This document shows positions 30,414 through 46,017 of a stretch of 64,000 nucleotides of DNA, piece after piece. Both the position numbers and the translations under genes were made by a program. Under the pieces are notes generated by a model that saw only the letters and a program-made list of their open reading frames with translations, did no database searches and was not told where the DNA came from. Each line of letters starts with the position of its first letter. Position 1 is the stretch's first letter. The stretch covers positions 13,968 through 77,967 of the forward strand of contig JAFGCX010000035.1 of the NCBI GenBank assembly GCA_016932415.1. The letters are read 5' to 3'. The stretch comes from Candidatus Krumholzibacteriota bacterium. Its GTDB lineage: Bacteria; Krumholzibacteriota; Krumholzibacteriia; Krumholzibacteriales; Krumholzibacteriaceae.

Positions 30414-32429
30414 TTATCTGTCAGCGCATCCGCTGGCGGTCTTCTCGGCGCATTCCGCCTTTTTCTTTCCATAGGCCAGATCCTCGATGAACGGTCTGGG
30501 ATCTATGATCTTTCCCTTCTTATAGATGAAGTGATCGCCGCGGTTTTCCGGCGCGACCATCCCTGTCTTGCTGAATTTTTCACTGATCCCGCCGATGAAT
30601 TCCCTGTAGGCGCTGCCGTCCGCGGAAGCATGCATCGGGATAAATACCATCGGTCTGAGTTTTTCAAGAGTGTATTCGATCCCTTCCTTCACCTGGTCAG
30701 GCTGACCGAGGCTGCAACCCCTGATCCCCATGAAGCAGATATCGGGGCGGGGACATCTCGCGGCAAGGAAATCGATCTCTTCAGTGAATTCATCCATCAG
30801 TCCGGTCTCCCCGTTAGCGTGGTCGCCAGCGTGGAATATCGTAAGGCCGTCTACCTCGACAAGCATCCCTACTCCCGCGTCGGTCGAATGGATCGTGGTA
30901 AGCTTTATATCACCGTATTTCTTTTCCATACGCTCCGTCATGAATTCATATGGCGGTACGCTGTCTCTCGGCTGGAGCCCGAGAAAATAGTTAATATCAG
31001 CGATCTGGTCCTTCCACTCGAATATTCCGGGATAGTAATGGTCCCCGTGGAAATGGGAAGCGAAGACGCTCACCATCTCTCCAGATAGTTCTGCCGGGTC
31101 GATCCTTCCGTTACAAAGGCCTGGCTTGTCGGGATCTTCGCGCTGTTTGAAATAATCGAATATCAGAAAGTGATTCCGGGTCCTGACCGCCCAGCCGCTG
31201 TGGCCGAGAAAATATATGGTGGCTTCATCCTTTCCCGGCCTTCCCAGTGAAGAAGGGGACCTGTCGATCGCTTTTGATCCGGCGCGAGCGCCTTTTGCCT
31301 TGAGCAGACTGGTGACCGCGCCATTCCCATAATATCCGGCAAGATCGACTGGGGATATGCCGCAGGCGCCCTTACTGTCCGGGTCGGCTCCGGCGGTGAT
31401 AAGCATGCGGGCTATATCGCTGTAACCGCCTATCGCTGCGAGCTGCAGAGCTGTCCTTCCGCACTTATCCTTTCCCAGTTCAGGCTTCGCGCCCGCTTTT
31501 ATCAAAGCTTCCACCTGACCGGCTTTTCCCTTTTCGGCTGCCAGCACAAGCGCCGTGGCTCCGTTTTCGTCGACAGCGTTCACATTGGCTCCATGCTCTA
31601 TGAGCAGGCTGGCCATTTCCATGGAACAGTTGTCAGCGGCGTTCATCAAAGCTGTTTTTCCCTGATATCCCCGGGTCTCCGTATTCGCGCCGTTTTCAAG
31701 CAGAATACGCGCTGATTCCACCGCGTCTCGCCATGTCGTGAAAATAAGGGGAGTGACATCGCCTTTTTTGACAGGGGGATTGGGGTTCGCTCCATTTTCA
31801 AGCAGCATGCGGACGATTTCAGTATTGTCAGACCCGGCGGCATAGGCGAGAGGAGTACCTCCGTTTATCGACTGGGTTTCCAGGTCGGTCCCGTTCGCGA
31901 CGATATGAGCGGCGAGCGCCGGAAGACCCCGTTGACAGGCATAGTGAAGCATGGTCTCTCCGTGGGGATTTCTGAAGTAGAGATCTGCTCCCGAATCGAT
32001 CAGGATCTGGACCATCTCGTCATTACCCCTATAGCAGGCAAAGCTGAGAGGGGTATCGGCCTTTCGGTCGCGGTGATTGACATCAGCTCCCTGTTCGAGC
32101 AGGAACCTGACCATTTCATGGTGCTTGCGCATCGCGGCGATCCCAAGCGCCGTACTGTTATCGCTGTCCCCGGCGTCGACATCGGCTCCAGCGTCGAGAA
32201 GGATACGGGCGATCTCGATATTTCCCACCGTTGCCGCAAAATGGATCGGCAGTTCGCGAAAAGTGTTGTCCGCGCGTTCATTGACCGCTTCGGGGACATT
32301 CCTCAGTATTTCTTTTACCCTGGCTGCATCTCCCGCCTCTATCGCGGCATGGATATCGCCAGCAACAGATGGAACTGTAGCTCCCAGGATAAGGACGGCG
32401 GCTACCAGGGGGATAATAAAAGATCTCAT
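30414..32429 (-). CDS. Exported ankyrin-repeat protein fused to a metallo-beta-lactamase-fold domain
   Basis: A 671-residue protein with a signal peptide (cleavage near SVAGD), about ten ankyrin repeats (residues about 25-390; for example 'LPIHFAATVGNIEIARILL' and 'TALQLAAIGGYSDIARMLI') and a C-terminal UlaG-like metallo-beta-lactamase domain. Its metal ligands are visible: 'FASHFHGDHYYPG' (HxHxDH), 'IFHAGDHANGE' and 'VFIPMHASADG'. 'ATIYFLGHSGWAVRT' is the typical first strand. The ATG has AAAGGAG upstream. It probably acts in the periplasm; the ankyrin stack may recruit a protein or sit over the active site. Substrate unknown; UlaG-like members hydrolyse phosphoesters or lactones. Confidence 0.9.
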   Translation of the reverse strand: MRSFIIPLVAAVLILGATVPSVAGDIHAAIEAGDAARVKEILRNVPEAVNERADNTFRELPIHFAATVGNIEIARILLDAGADVDAGDSDNSTALGIAAMRKHHEMVRFLLEQGADVNHRDRKADTPLSFACYRGNDEMVQILIDSGADLYFRNPHGETMLHYACQRGLPALAAHIVANGTDLETQSINGGTPLAYAAGSDNTEIVRMLLENGANPNPPVKKGDVTPLIFTTWRDAVESARILLENGANTETRGYQGKTALMNAADNCSMEMASLLIEHGANVNAVDENGATALVLAAEKGKAGQVEALIKAGAKPELGKDKCGRTALQLAAIGGYSDIARMLITAGADPDSKGACGISPVDLAGYYGNGAVTSLLKAKGARAGSKAIDRSPSSLGRPGKDEATIYFLGHSGWAVRTRNHFLIFDYFKQREDPDKPGLCNGRIDPAELSGEMVSVFASHFHGDHYYPGIFEWKDQIADINYFLGLQPRDSVPPYEFMTERMEKKYGDIKLTTIHSTDAGVGMLVEVDGLTIFHAGDHANGETGLMDEFTEEIDFLAARCPRPDICFMGIRGCSLGQPDQVKEGIEYTLEKLRPMVFIPMHASADGSAYREFIGGISEKFSKTGMVAPENRGDHFIYKKGKIIDPRPFIEDLAYGKKKAECAEKTASGCADR

Positions 32430-33575: not shown

Positions 33576-33845
33576 GGAAAAACTCCTTTTTGAAAGATCC
33601 CGGAACGGCCTATGGACGATCATTTCCCATCATGACCGCCCGGTGGACGCGGCCAGAGGAAAACTCCGCAAAATCACGGTCCGCTTATAGAGAGGGACCA
33701 GTATTAATACGAATGAAAGCATCAAGAGTTTCCGGTAAATAATACGAAACATTTGGGTGCTCAGCGCGGTATACTAAACCGGTGGCAGCGCTTCCGTGAT
33801 TCCTTCGAAAGGATAGGCAGCCGGATCACATCGACTGGAGATAGA

Positions 33846-35234
33846 ATGAATACCGAGAAGAGGGAGCGCGGCATCACCCCGGGCATTTCAAGACAGATCG
33901 GAAGTTTTTCAGCAACGAATATCGTCGTCGCCAATATCATAGGGGCGGGGATATTCACTACATCGGGGATCCTTGCCGGCTATCTTCCCGGGCCCCTTGC
34001 CGTCCTTTCCTGCTGGCTCTTCGGCGGGTTAATAGCGATCGCCGGGGCTCTATGTTATGCCGAGCTTGCCACCAGGATGCCGTTTGAAGGAGCTGAATAT
34101 ATCTATCTCAAGACCCTTTACCATCCAGTCCTTGGTTTTCTTACCGGGTGGACAAGCCTGATCGTCGGATTTTCCGCGCCGATAGCTGCTTCGGCGATCG
34201 GCTTTTCCGAGTATACCTTCGCCGGTCTGAACGGAGATCTGATATCCCTTCAACCCGGCATGTTGATGATAGCGAAGAAAGCGGTCGCCGTCGCGATAAT
34301 AGCGATATTCACCGCTATTCACTATACCGGCGTAAGGAGAGGGTCGAGGATCCAGAACATACTTACGATCGTAAAGATCGCCATCGTGATCGGAATCGCC
34401 GTGGCGGGGCTTGCCGCAGGCAAAGGAGCCTGGTCAAACATCGGTTTCCGCGAAAGTGTCGGACCATGGTCATGGCCCTCTTTCGGAACGGCGATGATGC
34501 TGGTGATGTTCGCCTACAGTGGATGGAACGCCAGTGCCTATATCGCCGGGGAACTGAAGAATCCGCGGCGGACGCTCCGAGTTTCTCTTATCTCCGGGAC
34601 GGGGATAGTCATAGTACTGTATCTCGCGATCAATATATTCCTTTTCCATACGATCCCTTATCAGCAGATCAGGGGGACAGTAGTAGCCGTCGAACAGGCT
34701 TCCGTTATAGCTTTCGGCAGCTGGATGGGGAAGGGGCTTAGCCTGATGGTCGGTCTTGCCCTGCTTTCTTCCCTCAGCGCGTTCATAATTATAGGTCCGA
34801 GAGTATATTTCGCGATGGCCAGGGATAAGCTTTTCCTGCCGTTTGCTTCGAAAGTACATCCAGGATACGGGGTGCCGGGGCGTTCGATCATCATCCAGGG
34901 AGTCATCGCGATGGTGATGGTATCGATCGGATCGTTCGAGCAGCTGCTCGTCTACCTCGGGTTCGGGCTGAGCATCTTTCCCTGGCTCGCCGTCGCCGGC
35001 ATTTTTATCGCCAGGAAAAGAAAGACCGGTGAATCGACAGCGGTAAAGGTTCCATGGTATCCATTCGTCCCTCTGTTTTTCCTTATCAGCATGCTCGCCC
35101 TTATGGCAGTCGCATTCTATAACAGGCCCTTTGAATCGGGGGCGGCGATTGTATCTGTCGTCGCCGGTATCCCCGTATATTTCATCTGGGTCCGGGCGTT
35201 GGGCGGAGGGAAAAAGATTAACGAAAACTTCTGA
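33846..35234 (+). CDS. APC-superfamily amino-acid permease
   Basis: A 462-residue inner-membrane transporter with about twelve transmembrane segments. The N-terminus has 'FSATNIVVANIIGAGIFTTSG', the conserved unwound TM1 substrate site of APC/LAT-type transporters. 'GALCYAELATRMPFEGAEYIYL' and 'MLVMFAYSGWNASAYIAGELKNP' are the classic TM3 and TM6 family blocks. The ATG at 33846 has TGGAGA upstream; the in-frame extension to 33753 is polar and unconvincing. It probably imports or exchanges neutral amino acids; the exact substrate cannot be read. It fits the peptidase and glutamate dehydrogenase content of the window. Confidence 0.93.
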   Translation: MNTEKRERGITPGISRQIGSFSATNIVVANIIGAGIFTTSGILAGYLPGPLAVLSCWLFGGLIAIAGALCYAELATRMPFEGAEYIYLKTLYHPVLGFLTGWTSLIVGFSAPIAASAIGFSEYTFAGLNGDLISLQPGMLMIAKKAVAVAIIAIFTAIHYTGVRRGSRIQNILTIVKIAIVIGIAVAGLAAGKGAWSNIGFRESVGPWSWPSFGTAMMLVMFAYSGWNASAYIAGELKNPRRTLRVSLISGTGIVIVLYLAINIFLFHTIPYQQIRGTVVAVEQASVIAFGSWMGKGLSLMVGLALLSSLSAFIIIGPRVYFAMARDKLFLPFASKVHPGYGVPGRSIIIQGVIAMVMVSIGSFEQLLVYLGFGLSIFPWLAVAGIFIARKRKTGESTAVKVPWYPFVPLFFLISMLALMAVAFYNRPFESGAAIVSVVAGIPVYFIWVRALGGGKKINENF

Positions 35235-35251: not shown

Positions 35252-35279
35252 TTGACTGTGACGATAAATCTAGTATTAT
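35252..35279 (+). promoter_or_regulatory. Sigma70-like promoter of the BlaI/M56 operon
   Basis: TTGACT at 35252-35257, a 16-base spacer and TATTAT at 35274-35279. The -10 box lies within the first of two overlapping dyads at 35271-35295, so repressor binding there would block transcription. Confidence 0.6.
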
Positions 35280-35295
35280 TACTATAGATATAGTA
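35271..35295 (+). promoter_or_regulatory. Probable BlaI/MecI-type operator (overlapping dyads)
   Basis: TACTATA-GA-TATAGTA (35280-35295) is a perfect 7-bp inverted repeat with a 2-base centre, and TAGTA-TTAT-TACTA (35271-35284) is a second dyad sharing its half-site. Known MecI/BlaI operators are 16-base dyads with TACTA/TAGTA ends and TACA/TGTA cores; the ends match here, the cores differ slightly. The site covers the -10 box and lies 27 bases upstream of the BlaI-family gene, implying autorepression. Confidence 0.65.
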
Positions 35296-35321
35296 GATAT
35301 ATGGTCGTGTTAGGAGGATCG

Positions 35322-35720
35322 ATGAAGAGAAAACCGAAACTGACTCCGGCAGAGTGGGAGATCATGGAAGCTGTCTGGGATCTGGGGGGTGAGCCATCAG
35401 TACGCGAGGTCCTCGAACATCTCTTTCCGAACGGGGAAAAGGCTTATACGACGGTGCAGACTGTCTTGAACACTCTTGAGAAGAAAAAGCTGCTCACCCG
35501 GCACAAGACGGGACTGGTCAATTTCTATTCTCCAATCTGTTCGAGGGAGGAACTTACCAGAACAGAGTTATCGTCAATAGTCTCGAGGATCTTTGGAGGT
35601 TCGATCCCGGCATTTGCCAATTCGCTTCTTTCGCTTGATAGCGTCGATCTCGACGAGATCAAAAAGATCAAGAGACTTATCGATCGGCGCGAGAAGGAAC
35701 TCAGGGAGAAGGAATCATGA
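35322..35720 (+). CDS. BlaI/MecI/CopY-family winged-helix repressor
   Basis: A 132-residue cytoplasmic DNA-binding protein. 'LTPAEWEIMEAVWDLGGEPSVREVLEHL' and 'AYTTVQTVLNTLEKKKLLTRHKTGLVNFYSP' are the standard winged-helix sequence of this family, including the TTV-T-L--L--KG-L region. The C-terminal helices serve for dimerisation. In the classical system the paired membrane metalloprotease triggers cleavage of the repressor within its dimerisation part. The ATG at 35322 has AGGAGG directly upstream. It overlaps the M56 peptidase gene by 4 bases, and an operator-like dyad precedes it. Confidence 0.93.
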   Translation: MKRKPKLTPAEWEIMEAVWDLGGEPSVREVLEHLFPNGEKAYTTVQTVLNTLEKKKLLTRHKTGLVNFYSPICSREELTRTELSSIVSRIFGGSIPAFANSLLSLDSVDLDEIKKIKRLIDRREKELREKES

Positions 35721-37333
35721 CAGATCTGATAAACCAGTTCGCGCAGGCATGGGGAAAATACTTCGGAATCGCGATATTGCAGAACAGTATTTTTCTCACT
35801 CTAATTTTTATTTTACTTTACCGTCTTCGAAACAGCGGCGCCTGGATCAAATACATTATCGCGATGACAGGGATATTTAAACTCCTGTTGCCCCCTTTCA
35901 TCCCGTCGAGCCTGTTGCCGGCTTTCTCCAACATCGAAGTGGCCAGATCTCTCCATGGCACAGTGTCATCTGACTTCGGCTCCATTCCTTTCACGGCAGG
36001 TTCTGAATTTTCCGGTCAGGCCGAAAACGGGATCGGGATAATCGGCCTTGTATTTCTTCTCTGGATGGCAGGCGTGATCAGCTCTATTGCCTTATCAGCC
36101 TTTTCGACCATCCGCCTGCGCGAGAAGCTGAAAAAGGCGAAGCAGTTTCCCGATGAGTATTCCATGGTCTATACGGGAGACAGGAGGACAGGTATCTGTC
36201 TTTCCGGAGAGATATCATGCCCGCTGAGTCTCGGCATCTTCCCGCGAAAGATATTCGTTCCAGTTCAATGGAACGACTGGAGCATCGAGTGCCGCAGACT
36301 TGTCATCCTGCACGAAATGGCCCATATAAAAAGAAAAGACAGTGTCTTTCAGATATTTCAGTTATCAGCTCAGGCGATCTATTTCTTCCACCCGATGGTC
36401 AATATCCTTTGTTCGAAACTGAGGGAATACCGGGAGATGGCCTGCGACGATATTTCAGTGGGAAGTAAAAGAAGCACTTCAATAGAGTATTCCAGGTACC
36501 TGGTTGAAATCGCCGAGAAGATGGTAAGCGATCAGGTCGCTTGCCATTCGGCGTCTGCCCTGATCAGGCAGAAGAACGAACTGTTGAGTCGAGTCATCTA
36601 TCAGATGAGAGGAGGAATGATGCGTTCTATGACAAGAGGCAAGGCAGCAGTGATAACGGCTTTGTCTGCTATCATGATCCTGCCCTTTTCATGGTACTTC
36701 AGCAGCGCTTCAATCGAGCAACCAGGTTTTCAAAACGCGCCAGCAGCGTCACGATCGGAAAATTCAGCAAAAGACGATCTCCCGGCTCCCGACAGTGAAA
36801 AAGGTCTGAGAGTGACCGTCGATAGCGATAATTCGGTCTGGTTTGAAGAAAAGCGCGTCCCGATCGAAGAATTGTTGGAGATTCTTAAAGGCAGGTTCAA
36901 AGAGGCCGGTGAATATCCGATCATAGAGATAGATTGTGACGCAGATGTCGTAATGAATACGATCTTCAGTCTTCACAGGCTTCTTTCGGAAGCGGATATG
37001 ACGAAAGTCAGATACAAGGTAGAGGGAAACGGCGGAGTGCCGCTGAGGCTTCCCGACAGGGAGGTGATAAGGCGGATGGAAGAAGTACCGGAGCAGCATA
37101 TAGCTCCGGTGGTCATCGCCTCATCAGGAGAAGTGGACTTCGATGGCGATCAGATGGGGTTGGACAAGCTCCAGGCCGTCCTCAGAGATCGCCTGTCGAA
37201 AGACCCGGGGCTCGTTGTCTCTCTGTCGTCCGACAGTGATACGAGATATCTTGTCTTCATCAACGTACTGGAGAAAATCACAGGGGCGGGCGTGAAAAGA
37301 GTCTTTGTGGAAACGCCTGAAGTGAAAGACTGA
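35717..37333 (+). CDS. M56 (BlaR1/MecR1-like) membrane metalloprotease with two ExbD/TolR-like C-terminal domains
   Basis: A 538-residue protein. The first 130 residues contain several transmembrane helices; the cytoplasmic gluzincin domain has His199-Glu200-x-x-His203 in 'VILHEMAHIKRKDS' and the third ligand Glu240 in 'REYREMACDD', the M56 signature. A last transmembrane helix (about 308-330) leads to the outside. Unlike BlaR1 there is no penicillin-binding sensor. Instead there are two domains (about 363-435 and 463-534) that read like ExbD/TolR periplasmic domains: '-VDSDNSVWFEEKRVPIEEL-' and '-ASSGEVDFDGDQMGLDKLQ-', each followed by a strand/helix ending in a V-R/K-V strand. It probably senses an envelope signal and inactivates the BlaI partner. 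Overlap with the repressor gene is ATGA. Confidence 0.88.
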   Translation: MTDLINQFAQAWGKYFGIAILQNSIFLTLIFILLYRLRNSGAWIKYIIAMTGIFKLLLPPFIPSSLLPAFSNIEVARSLHGTVSSDFGSIPFTAGSEFSGQAENGIGIIGLVFLLWMAGVISSIALSAFSTIRLREKLKKAKQFPDEYSMVYTGDRRTGICLSGEISCPLSLGIFPRKIFVPVQWNDWSIECRRLVILHEMAHIKRKDSVFQIFQLSAQAIYFFHPMVNILCSKLREYREMACDDISVGSKRSTSIEYSRYLVEIAEKMVSDQVACHSASALIRQKNELLSRVIYQMRGGMMRSMTRGKAAVITALSAIMILPFSWYFSSASIEQPGFQNAPAASRSENSAKDDLPAPDSEKGLRVTVDSDNSVWFEEKRVPIEELLEILKGRFKEAGEYPIIEIDCDADVVMNTIFSLHRLLSEADMTKVRYKVEGNGGVPLRLPDREVIRRMEEVPEQHIAPVVIASSGEVDFDGDQMGLDKLQAVLRDRLSKDPGLVVSLSSDSDTRYLVFINVLEKITGAGVKRVFVETPEVKD

Positions 37334-42531: not shown

Positions 42532-45500
42532 CTAGCGCAAGTAGACTATTTTCCTCGTCTGCCGGAATTTCCCCGCTTTTATCCTGCAGAAATAGACTCC
42601 CGAAGTGACGGAACGTTTCGCGCCGTCTTTTCCGTCCCAGGCGGTGAAATGCCTGCCCGGTTCCCTGGTGACCTTTTCAAGTGTTCTCACCAGGCGTCCG
42701 GCAGGATCGAAGATCGATAGTTCAACGTCGCATCTCTCTGAAAGGGTATACGCTATCGTCGTGTTTCCATTGAAAGGATTCGGGTAGTTCTGTTCCAGAG
42801 CGGTCGCGTATACCGGAGTGCCAGGTTCTTCCTCATCTTCTCCGACCCCCGTTGGATCGAAGACGGAGAAGAAATCGTCGCTGGTGTCCTCTCCCTCGTT
42901 CAATCCGGAGTCGAAGGCGACCACCCTGATCAGGCACGAGTCGGCGACCATGGAAGGAGCGAACCAAACATAAAGCGAATCGTTATCCTCTCCCTGGGCG
43001 ACAAGTTCAAAATCGTCTCCACCGTTCGAAGAGAACCAGATGCTGACTGAATCGACACCGATATTGTCCGTCGCTATCCAGGCGATATTTACCGGGTCTC
43101 CCGTCTCGAAATATTCTCCGCCGTTCGGCAGGGTCACTGTCACGACCGGATCGATATTATCGACGCCGGAGACGCACGCTCTGGCCTGGGGCGAATATCC
43201 CCCCGCGTATCCCGCGAGGTCCACGGCCGACACCCGGTAATAATGACATCCGTCAAGATGCGTTACGTCGAGAGTGGTCAGGCCTCCGGTGACAGTGCCG
43301 AGGAAGTTCGTCTCGAGCGGCCGGAACCGGTCGGTAAGTGAAGAGTATATGGCGTAATAGTCAAGCCCAGGAGATGACAGGGCGGACCATTCGATATGTA
43401 TCGTCGAATCGTTGAGCGCCGAGGCGGTAAGCCCGGCGATATGATCAGGAGCTGCAAAGAGAGCCCCTTCTCCTCCATACGCCCCCATATCGGCCGTCGA
43501 GCCGTCGGGGTCGCCGCCAAGGGAAGGATCGCCGCCGTCTATCCCAGCCGAGTGAAGGGCAAGGTGATAGTCCAGGGCCGTAGTGTCTGCATAATGGGGA
43601 TTTTCAAAGATATTCGTACTGTCCGAATCGATCATGAAGAGATCTTCAGGGAAATTTCCGAAGATGTCGTTGTACTGAAGAGTGATCTTCACCTGGCTTG
43701 TCGCCTGCAGCCCGTACTTGCGTCCGTAGGTGACGAGGTTGTTTGTTATCGACGTCGTTTCCATGTTGGCCAGAAAGAGATTGCCGCCGCCGAACGCCGC
43801 CGTGTTTCTGTCAACGGTATTGTTGATTATCTCGCCCCACGAGCTGTCGGCATAGACGCCGCCGCCGACGAAGGCGGCCTCATTGAGCGCTATTATCGAG
43901 TTTTTCAGCGAAAAGCTGGCGCATTTATGGAAAAGGCCCCCTGCCATACTTGTAGAATAATTATCAATGACGCTCATACGAGAGCCGGTGAATGAAGAAC
44001 GTTCGATATATAAGCCTCCGCCGGTGTTTTTTGAGGAATTTCCGGAGATCGTGTCGCCGGAAGATGTGACTGGGCTGAAACGGGCGTAGACACCTCCGCC
44101 GTAGACATACCCGGAGTTCGACGTTATGCTGTTATTTTCAAGTTCCACAGAGGAGTGGAGGGCATAGATTCCGCCGCCGTTCTTCGTTCCGCCATAGTCA
44201 GCATTCGGAAAAGACCTCGAGATGACATTCCCCGAAATCACGGCGTTTGTCTGATAGAGGTAAATCCCACCGCCCGACTGCGCCGAGCAGCTGTCGATCG
44301 TATTGTCCTCGATCGTTACATCGCCGTTGTAACATGAGATCCCCCCTCCGCCGCTGAAACCCGAGGCGTTAGTGTAACCGCAATCGAAGATCGTGTTGTT
44401 TCTTATCACGGGAGATGAGTTGTAGCAGAATATCCCTCCGCCATAGAGGCCATTTGACGGGATGAGGGCGCTTTTTCCCGTTCCACCGGCGATAGTGAAC
44501 CCGTCGATGCCGCAGGGGAGGGTCGTAGTGTTCATGAACGAGACTACGCTTCCCACCGACTGCAGCCTTGAGATATAGACCCGCGGGTCTCTCCCCGAGA
44601 ATCCGGCGTTCCAACCCCCGAGAAGCCAGACAGGTTTCGAGACGGTGACCGGCCCGACGTAGACGTGTTCTCCAGCGACCATGATCGTGTCGTTGTCGTC
44701 GGCGAAATCGACAGCGTCCTGCACGTTATGCGCCGCCCAGGCAGGTATCGAATATGGTTCGCGGTTGTCGCCGTCAGGCGAGACATATTTGTACGGCGGC
44801 CCGACTATCGTAAAATCAGCGTCGCTCTCGTCAAATCCGCCGATCACTCCGTCAAGCCAGGCTACGATCTTGATCCTCGCGCTTTTTACCGGAGTCTCGG
44901 TGACGGACCAGATCAGGCTGTCGACAGTCCCTTCAAGACCATTCGCCAGCGACATCTCGTAAGTGTCGCCGCTGTTGAAACTGAGAAAAACATTAACCGA
45001 ATCGGGCACTGCCCTTCCAAGAGTCCAGTTGATCTCGTAGAGCTCTTCCATGTCAAGCTCTTCGCCGCCGTTGGGATTATCGAGATGCACCAGGACGCTG
45101 CTCGGCTGATATTCTATCTGGTAAGGAAAAGAGCCGATGCTGCAGACGCCGTATTGTATATAGCAAAATCCATCGGTCCCCCAGTCCTCTCCCCAGCTGT
45201 TCTTCATTATCCACGCGCCCTCGCCGCCGCAGGCGTTATCGTCCCATCCGACAAGCAGGACGGCGTGGTTCGGCGTGTCAGCGTAATCGTGGTCGTAGCA
45301 GCCGGAGTAATAACTGCTGAAGTCATCATGGGCGAACATGCCGCACGCCACAGGACCGTAATCGTAGATAGCCTGCTTGATCTGCGAGGGCTGTGTGGAG
45401 ATCGACCAGAACGAGTTGATCCACGCCAGTTTTTCGCAGCCGTCCATCACGCACGGGAGTCCGTCCGTCGCCTGGTAAGGCATGCAGTTCTCATGGACAG

Positions 45501-46017
45501 CCCCCCTGTCGCGCAGGAGCTCATGCGCGCCTGCCACCCATCCGCCACCGCAGTCTCCTCCCCATGTGTCGCAATCGACGACCGCCTGTTCGGAGAGATC
45601 GAGGATCCTCTGGTCGTATATCCTCGCGTGCGCCTCGAGCTGGCCGATCGCGGCGAAAGCCCAGCATGAGCCGCAACTTCCCTGGTTTTTCGCGATCGTA
45701 ACGCCGCTGTGTCCGCGCCAGTCGTAGTAAGCTGGCAGGGCGGCTGATTCGGCAAGGACCCGAAGGGGCATCTGTTCCCATTCTTCTGCCGTCGGGGGTA
45801 TCATGCCGCTGAGACGCTGCCTTTCGGCGTAGGGAAGCGAACCGGCGGTGGTCAATCCCGCCGTCCAGTGGCCTCCCTTTTCGGCGATCTCACGGTTGAT
45901 CCTGTCGACTCTTTCCCGCGGCGATTCCTCTTCCGCGGAAAAGGCTGCCGCCGAGAAGGCGAAGACAGCGAGGAAGATAAGTGATATCAAGTAACTTTTT
46001 CGATGACGCTGAAACAT
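42532..46017 (-). CDS. Secreted papain-like (C1) cysteine protease with parallel beta-helix and type-IX-type C-terminal domain
   Basis: A 1161-residue secreted protein. A signal peptide (to about 28) and a short propeptide precede the C1 protease domain with oxyanion Gln112, catalytic Cys118 in 'NQGSCGSCWAF', His251 in 'TPNHAVLLVGWDD' and Asn273 in 'MKNSWGEDWG'. Then come an Ig-like domain ('NGGEELDMEELYEINW'), a right-handed beta-helix region with many 'GGGIY' repeats ('SGGGIYLYQTNAVISGN', 'KNGGGIYALHSSVELENN'), a fibronectin-like domain and another Ig-like domain. It ends in a FlgD-like/type IX sorting domain ('LEQNYPNPFNGNTTIAYTLS ... RKIVYLR', about 1075-1161). The ATG has AAGGAGAG upstream. 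It is probably an extracellular protease; the beta-helix suggests polysaccharide or surface binding. Confidence 0.93.
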   Translation of the reverse strand: MFQRHRKSYLISLIFLAVFAFSAAAFSAEEESPRERVDRINREIAEKGGHWTAGLTTAGSLPYAERQRLSGMIPPTAEEWEQMPLRVLAESAALPAYYDWRGHSGVTIAKNQGSCGSCWAFAAIGQLEAHARIYDQRILDLSEQAVVDCDTWGGDCGGGWVAGAHELLRDRGAVHENCMPYQATDGLPCVMDGCEKLAWINSFWSISTQPSQIKQAIYDYGPVACGMFAHDDFSSYYSGCYDHDYADTPNHAVLLVGWDDNACGGEGAWIMKNSWGEDWGTDGFCYIQYGVCSIGSFPYQIEYQPSSVLVHLDNPNGGEELDMEELYEINWTLGRAVPDSVNVFLSFNSGDTYEMSLANGLEGTVDSLIWSVTETPVKSARIKIVAWLDGVIGGFDESDADFTIVGPPYKYVSPDGDNREPYSIPAWAAHNVQDAVDFADDNDTIMVAGEHVYVGPVTVSKPVWLLGGWNAGFSGRDPRVYISRLQSVGSVVSFMNTTTLPCGIDGFTIAGGTGKSALIPSNGLYGGGIFCYNSSPVIRNNTIFDCGYTNASGFSGGGGISCYNGDVTIEDNTIDSCSAQSGGGIYLYQTNAVISGNVISRSFPNADYGGTKNGGGIYALHSSVELENNSITSNSGYVYGGGVYARFSPVTSSGDTISGNSSKNTGGGLYIERSSFTGSRMSVIDNYSTSMAGGLFHKCASFSLKNSIIALNEAAFVGGGVYADSSWGEIINNTVDRNTAAFGGGNLFLANMETTSITNNLVTYGRKYGLQATSQVKITLQYNDIFGNFPEDLFMIDSDSTNIFENPHYADTTALDYHLALHSAGIDGGDPSLGGDPDGSTADMGAYGGEGALFAAPDHIAGLTASALNDSTIHIEWSALSSPGLDYYAIYSSLTDRFRPLETNFLGTVTGGLTTLDVTHLDGCHYYRVSAVDLAGYAGGYSPQARACVSGVDNIDPVVTVTLPNGGEYFETGDPVNIAWIATDNIGVDSVSIWFSSNGGDDFELVAQGEDNDSLYVWFAPSMVADSCLIRVVAFDSGLNEGEDTSDDFFSVFDPTGVGEDEEEPGTPVYATALEQNYPNPFNGNTTIAYTLSERCDVELSIFDPAGRLVRTLEKVTREPGRHFTAWDGKDGAKRSVTSGVYFCRIKAGKFRQTRKIVYLR

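Follow-up and report, generated by a model that had tools for sequence, protein, structure and literature searches.

The DNA analysed here, a stretch of 64,000 nucleotides that we call the window, contains a gene for a BlaI-family repressor that overlaps by 4 bases a gene for an M56 metalloprotease with a HEMAH motif. An earlier note on this DNA had described this arrangement, and both the open reading frames and the Pfam matches bear it out (Table 1). An alternative start of the repressor gene lies at 35301. The repressor has the Penicillinase_R winged helix and C-terminal dimer domain of BlaI/MecI proteins, and a dyad that is its putative operator lies at its own promoter. In the M56 protein, Pfam detected Peptidase_M56 (2.6e-27) and ExbD (1.5e-13, two stretches) and no other family over the cut-off.

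Table 1 Features of the BlaI-M56 operon in the window
Feature	Position	Strand	Basis or remark
Operon promoter, -35 TTGACT 35252-35257, -10 TATTAT 35274-35279	35252..35279	+	read from sequence
Putative operator CTAGTATTATTACTATAGATATAGTA, core dyad TACTATA-GA-TATAGTA, over -10 box	35270..35295	.	family consensus match
BlaI-family winged-helix repressor, 132 aa	35322..35720	+	Penicillinase_R 1.8e-27 (Pfam); PDB 1sd4 BlaI 7.3e-10
M56 metalloprotease with two ExbD domains, 538 aa	35717..37333	+	
M56 protease domain and first three membrane helices, residues 12-294	35750..36598	+	BlaR1 structures; Pfam 19-294
HEMAH zinc motif, residues 199-203	36311..36325	+	H, E and H invariant in 9/9 rows
EMACD, third zinc ligand motif ExxxD, residues 240-244	36434..36448	+	invariant
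SALIRQ loop, residues 280-285, at the BlaR1 autocleavage place	36554..36571	+	profile alignment
Last transmembrane helix, residues 307-325, no Asp	36635..36691	+	model and sequence
ExbD-like domain 1, residues 362-436	36800..37024	+	ExbD 8vgd, Z 11.6, rmsd 1.6, 72 residues
Inter-domain strand VPLRLP, residues 441-446	37037..37054	+	counterpart of ExbD/TolR swapped N-terminal strand
ExbD-like domain 2, residues 460-534	37094..37318	+	TolR 5by4, ExbD 8pek; Pfam ExbD 452-532

No beta-lactamase or PBP gene was seen adjoining the pair. ExbB/TolQ genes are absent among the neighbours of the M56 gene in the window (the relatives were checked by eye only), and the genome's own ExbD genes are located away from this locus; ExbB/ExbD/TonB-like and Tol-like gene sets are also encoded by the genome. 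Beside the loci of relatives, no conserved neighbour gene other than BlaI was evident by eye. An amino acid permease gene on the same strand (33753-35234, +) ends 87 bases upstream of the repressor gene, and transcription may read through from it into the BlaI-M56 operon; no such permease was seen beside the relatives of the pair.

In nearly all relatives, a TTGACA-like box is found at an equal distance upstream of the repressor gene, followed downstream by a dyad like TTAGTATACTTACTATAGATATAGTA that lies over the -10 box at a fixed distance from the repressor. This fixed distance to the repressor start is common to the ExbD-type systems and to the TonB-type systems described below. The window operator agrees with the family consensus at 23 of 26 positions, and 500 shuffles all scored lower (best 18); the consensus letters were taken from a KSB1 relative, which therefore scores 26/26. 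At L053, L056, L057 and L060 the operator is weak, and at L063 and L067 it is not visible. Since the only perfect copy of the 17-base operator core in the window's genome is the one at this promoter, the safest reading of the conserved dyad is that it indicates autoregulation. The only one-mismatch copy elsewhere (G000:C15:31055) was considered as a further BlaI target and is probably a chance match, as it falls within the opening codons of a lipoprotein-like gene. A reversed control pattern gave more matches in the genome scan than the real pattern, so weak operator matches carry no meaning, and neither a further operator site in that scan nor a conserved neighbour gene points to regulated genes.

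BlaR1-type membrane proteases switch on penicillin resistance in Staphylococcus, and the protease half of the window protein is built in the same way. An AlphaFold model of the whole protein, based on a nine-sequence alignment, predicts four membrane helices, a protease core, a disordered linker (residues 327-361) and two C-terminal domains, and the PDB fold search matched the protease half to S. aureus BlaR1 (Z 16.0, 236 residues). The HExxH and ExxxD motifs of a zinc protease lie in this four-helix membrane core, as in BlaR1-type M56 receptors, HEMAH being the counterpart of BlaR1 H201EXXH and EMACD that of E242XXXD. In a profile alignment, the BlaR1 autocleavage site Ser283|Phe284 aligns with L282|I283, of which L282 is invariant in the family alignment and position I283 is mostly bulky and hydrophobic; residues 273-280 are of low confidence and flexible in the model. 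A BlaI-family repressor gene lies upstream of every relative examined. The known BlaI cut position N101|F102 aligns with S101|L102 of the window's repressor, and a Leu follows the cleavage position in all partner repressors of the relatives but one, which has Met. Conserved cleavage-site positions would fit a protease that cleaves its BlaI upon a periplasmic signal.

The C-terminal part sets the protein apart from BlaR1/MecR1-BlaI/MecI of S. aureus. The two systems share the protease fold, both zinc motifs, the BlaI partner, the cleavage-site positions, a dyad on the shared promoter and a sensor placed C-terminal to the last helix, whereas the sensor binds penicillin in BlaR1/MecR1 and consists of two ExbD domains here. 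The NCBI BlaR1 equivalog model matches the protease half only, with 67 bits against a cut-off of 400, and neither this model nor Pfam found a class D beta-lactamase-like penicillin-binding domain at the C-terminus; the protein therefore falls outside the BlaR1/MecR1 beta-lactam receptors in the strict sense. The earlier note had placed two ExbD/TolR-like domains at about residues 363-435 and 463-534, in the position of the beta-lactam sensor of BlaR1, and the position holds, with modelled folds at about 364-433 and 462-531.

Modelled alone, the C-terminal 181 residues gave a pLDDT of 88.7 and a pTM of 0.85, and AlphaFold predicts in each domain the order strand-strand-strand-helix-strand-helix-strand. 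The PDB fold searches found the ExbD/TolR periplasmic fold for both domains, domain 2 matching TolR 5by4 (Z 11.7 over 98 residues) and ExbD 8pek (Z 11.4 over 94), and domain 1 has in addition a profile match to ExbD 8pek (7e-6). This is the comparison that the earlier note had proposed as a check: both predicted structures match the fold, and no clear match to another sensor family appeared, with no other Pfam family over the cut-off and with unrelated folds among the PDB hits, such as ribosomal S11 and pantothenate kinase, reaching about half the Z of ExbD/TolR. When the C-terminal region was aligned by hhalign with the genome's own ExbD proteins, the probability was 97.8%. A whole-genome ExbD scan recovered domain 2 over the cut-off (37049-37312, E 6.7e-8) and domain 1 under it (36740-37012, E 1.5e-4), together with six ordinary ExbD/TolR genes; the NCBI ExbD/TolR models gave weak matches to the M56 protein. 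A chance resemblance to ExbD is ruled out by the genome scan, Pfam, hhalign, the fold search and the family-wide matches. The modelled structures and these searches agree that the periplasmic C-terminus consists of two tandem ExbD/TolR periplasmic domains.

In E. coli, the two protomers of the ExbD homodimer form a groove that captures a single TonB strand (PMC10907165), and the N-terminal strand of ExbD (residues 44-49) swaps to close the dimer and opens for TonB (PMC10771500). The window protein has one counterpart of this strand, VPLRLP, which superposes on ExbD from residue 43 onward and on TolR from residue 38 onward, is included in the profile match to true ExbD proteins, and has an invariant L445-P446 in the family alignment. 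Because this invariant Leu-Pro strand superposes on the segment that closes the ExbD/TolR dimer, one chain probably supplies two protomers and one closing strand, and the pair probably works as a single-chain ExbD dimer, the mutual arrangement of the two domains being derived from one-chain superpositions. The position of ExbD Tyr112 is occupied by Met413 in domain 1 and Tyr511 in domain 2, and that of Leu132 by Tyr433 and Val531, respectively (equivalences from the profile alignment with 8pek for domain 1 and by eye for domain 2). Groove and interface positions are thus conserved across the family yet unequal between the halves, a pattern that would be as expected for a fixed pseudo-dimer. 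The fold, the profile, the Leu-Pro segment of the swapped strand and the dimer-interface Tyr of domain 2 are shared with ExbD/TolR periplasmic domains; the two domains per chain, the lack of the Asp motor helix and the attached protease are not.

A survey of other M56 proteins, suggested in the earlier note, found that the fusion recurs together with its BlaI partner. The BlaI-M56-ExbD-ExbD architecture is present in at least 11 genomes, which rules out a contaminant or an artefact of one genome. A search with the C-terminal profile located it in 8 of the 80 genomes of this Krumholzibacteriota-like phylum (G000, G003, G015, G044, G060, G074, G075 and G077). It is also present in 2 of the 82 KSB1-type genomes (G080 and G082, the latter frameshifted in its N-terminal part); a further genome that bears it is G086. 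In G014, the N-terminal half and BlaI are present, and the gene enters a stretch of N before the sensor. Protein searches across the 80 phylum genomes gave full-length relatives with 32-37% identity, and among the named records of relatives are bins labelled as Latescibacterota and one Krumholzibacteriia bacterium, on which the phylum assignment of the window rests. All nine proteins of family alignment A3 have both Pfam families (best ExbD 1.3e-17). No viral relatives of the M56-ExbD protein were found, and the defence-system models of PADLOC gave no match.

The double ExbD-like region also occurs without the protease, in two free-standing proteins (L051:5707-6456, -, and L049:6793-7626, +), of which the one from G075 starts near the last membrane helix and the one from G057 seems to have a signal peptide. 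Pfam reports one ExbD stretch in each, and the C-terminal profile spans both domains; these proteins may be remnants, or else partners in soluble or anchored form. Two kinds of M56 C-terminus occur in one genome, where the protease of the second BlaI-M56 pair (L009:796-2915, -) ends, by eye, in a charged coil and TPR-like repeats.

The nearest relatives in KSB1-type genomes (L061-L066) have TonB C-terminal domains at the sensor place, usually as CarboxypepD_reg plus TonB_C. These proteases belong to the same M56 and BlaI subfamily and share the operator and the place of the sensor, and they differ in having a TonB_C-based sensor where the window protein has ExbD. One of them (L066:5983-7605) has two tandem TonB_C domains (Pfam 5.2e-46, two stretches), in parallel to the tandem ExbD pair. 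A phylogeny of the protease part separates the ExbD and TonB types by one branch with moderate support (83/88), so a single receptor lineage has acquired two different components of the Ton machinery. Another M56 relative (L067:5989-7362) has a C-terminus like a FlgD/Por-secretion sorting-type domain, with weak Pfam matches below the cut-offs.

BlaR1 is a dimer, and its extracellular loop fills the sensor site until the antibiotic displaces it (PMC9834060). We give about an even chance to the reading in which the window protein is a one-protein receptor of the BlaR1 type that senses through an ExbD/TolR periplasmic dimer reproduced in a single chain. In the resting state, the strand that connects the two ExbD domains would occupy the groove between them, perhaps joined there by the disordered loop that follows membrane helix 2, like EL1 in BlaR1. 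A natural ligand of ExbD/TolR, likeliest a D-box-type strand of a TonB/TolA-like protein and otherwise exposed peptidoglycan, would displace this strand, a step proposed by analogy with the BlaR1 loop displaced by antibiotic. Binding would move the sensor and free the cytoplasmic protease from its autocleavage loop; the protease would then cut BlaI at S101|L102, which would derepress the operon and any further BlaI targets. With two envelope-motor domains in place of the penicillin sensor, the receptor probably responds to the state of the cell wall or of the Ton/Tol machinery and not to antibiotics. Against a BlaR1-like explanation counts the alignment of the interchain Arg294 of BlaR1 with Val293 here.

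A bolder form of this reading, which we hold tentatively and consider somewhat unlikely, is that these receptors listen in on the Ton/Tol motor: the ExbD pair, mimicking the dimer in one chain, would compete for the D-box strand of the force transducer, the TonB-domain mimic of the sister proteins for the Ton boxes of transporters, and expression would report motor engagement. The groove could instead bind peptidoglycan or muropeptides, fragments from wall damage or turnover leading to BlaI cleavage. The periplasmic domains of TolR and ExbD bind peptidoglycan (PMC4646322, PMC10771500), removal of the swapped segments exposes this binding in TolR (PMC4646322), the window protein's domains share the fold, and such a sensor would functionally resemble BlaR1 in its link to antibiotics that act on the wall; with the TonB-type sister receptors pointing rather to protein partners, we regard it as unlikely.

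ExbD/TolR domains are also dimerisation modules (PMC10907165, PMC10771500, PMC4646322). Against any sensor explanation, the ExbD folds could be retained merely for dimerisation, or as a ligand-free anchor that either couples protease activity to envelope tension or does no more than stabilise the receptor. BlaR1 being a dimer would suit this explanation, as would the drift of the domain sequences to 20-26% identity. We consider it improbable, since the Leu-Pro strand and the groove positions are kept within this fast-changing region and the sister proteins have other envelope-machinery domains at the same spot. By far the least probable is an extra ExbD subunit of a Ton/Tol-like motor driven by proton-motive force, for which speaks the extension of the ExbD homology to the strand just after the ExbD membrane helix. 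The single N-terminal membrane helix with a proton-binding Asp that marks ExbD/TolR was not found: Asp is missing from the helix that precedes domain 1, and this helix and the domain are held apart by some 35 residues of disordered linker. Lacking the transmembrane Asp of true ExbD proteins, the protein is not a motor subunit.

To our knowledge, very little is known about what M56-BlaI pairs sense besides beta-lactams. The "new class" of sensor announced in the earlier note is too strong a term, as protease, repressor, operator logic and topology all follow BlaR1-BlaI and a sister lineage has TonB domains in the same place; what is new is a BlaR1-type receptor carrying sensor domains of the Ton/Tol machinery. 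The note's suggestion that the protease may sense peptidoglycan or the proton-motive machinery derives from the ligands of ExbD/TolR domains. The open-access literature yielded no paper joining peptidase M56 and ExbD, with or without BlaR1. If a TonB/TolA strand were bound, motor state would be read out directly in transcription, and the papers searched describe no such read-out for Ton or Tol. Structural studies could also make use of the tandem form, which would be an ExbD dimer already linked covalently.

Elsewhere in the window, two further genes were read by eye. One (30414-32429, -) encodes ankyrin repeats followed in one chain by what looks to be a metallo-beta-lactamase fold with the motif SHFHGDHYYPG. 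The other (42532-46017, -) encodes a papain-like cysteine protease followed by repeat-rich beta-helix-like and fibronectin-like parts, and its product ends in a sorting-type tail, YPNPFN.
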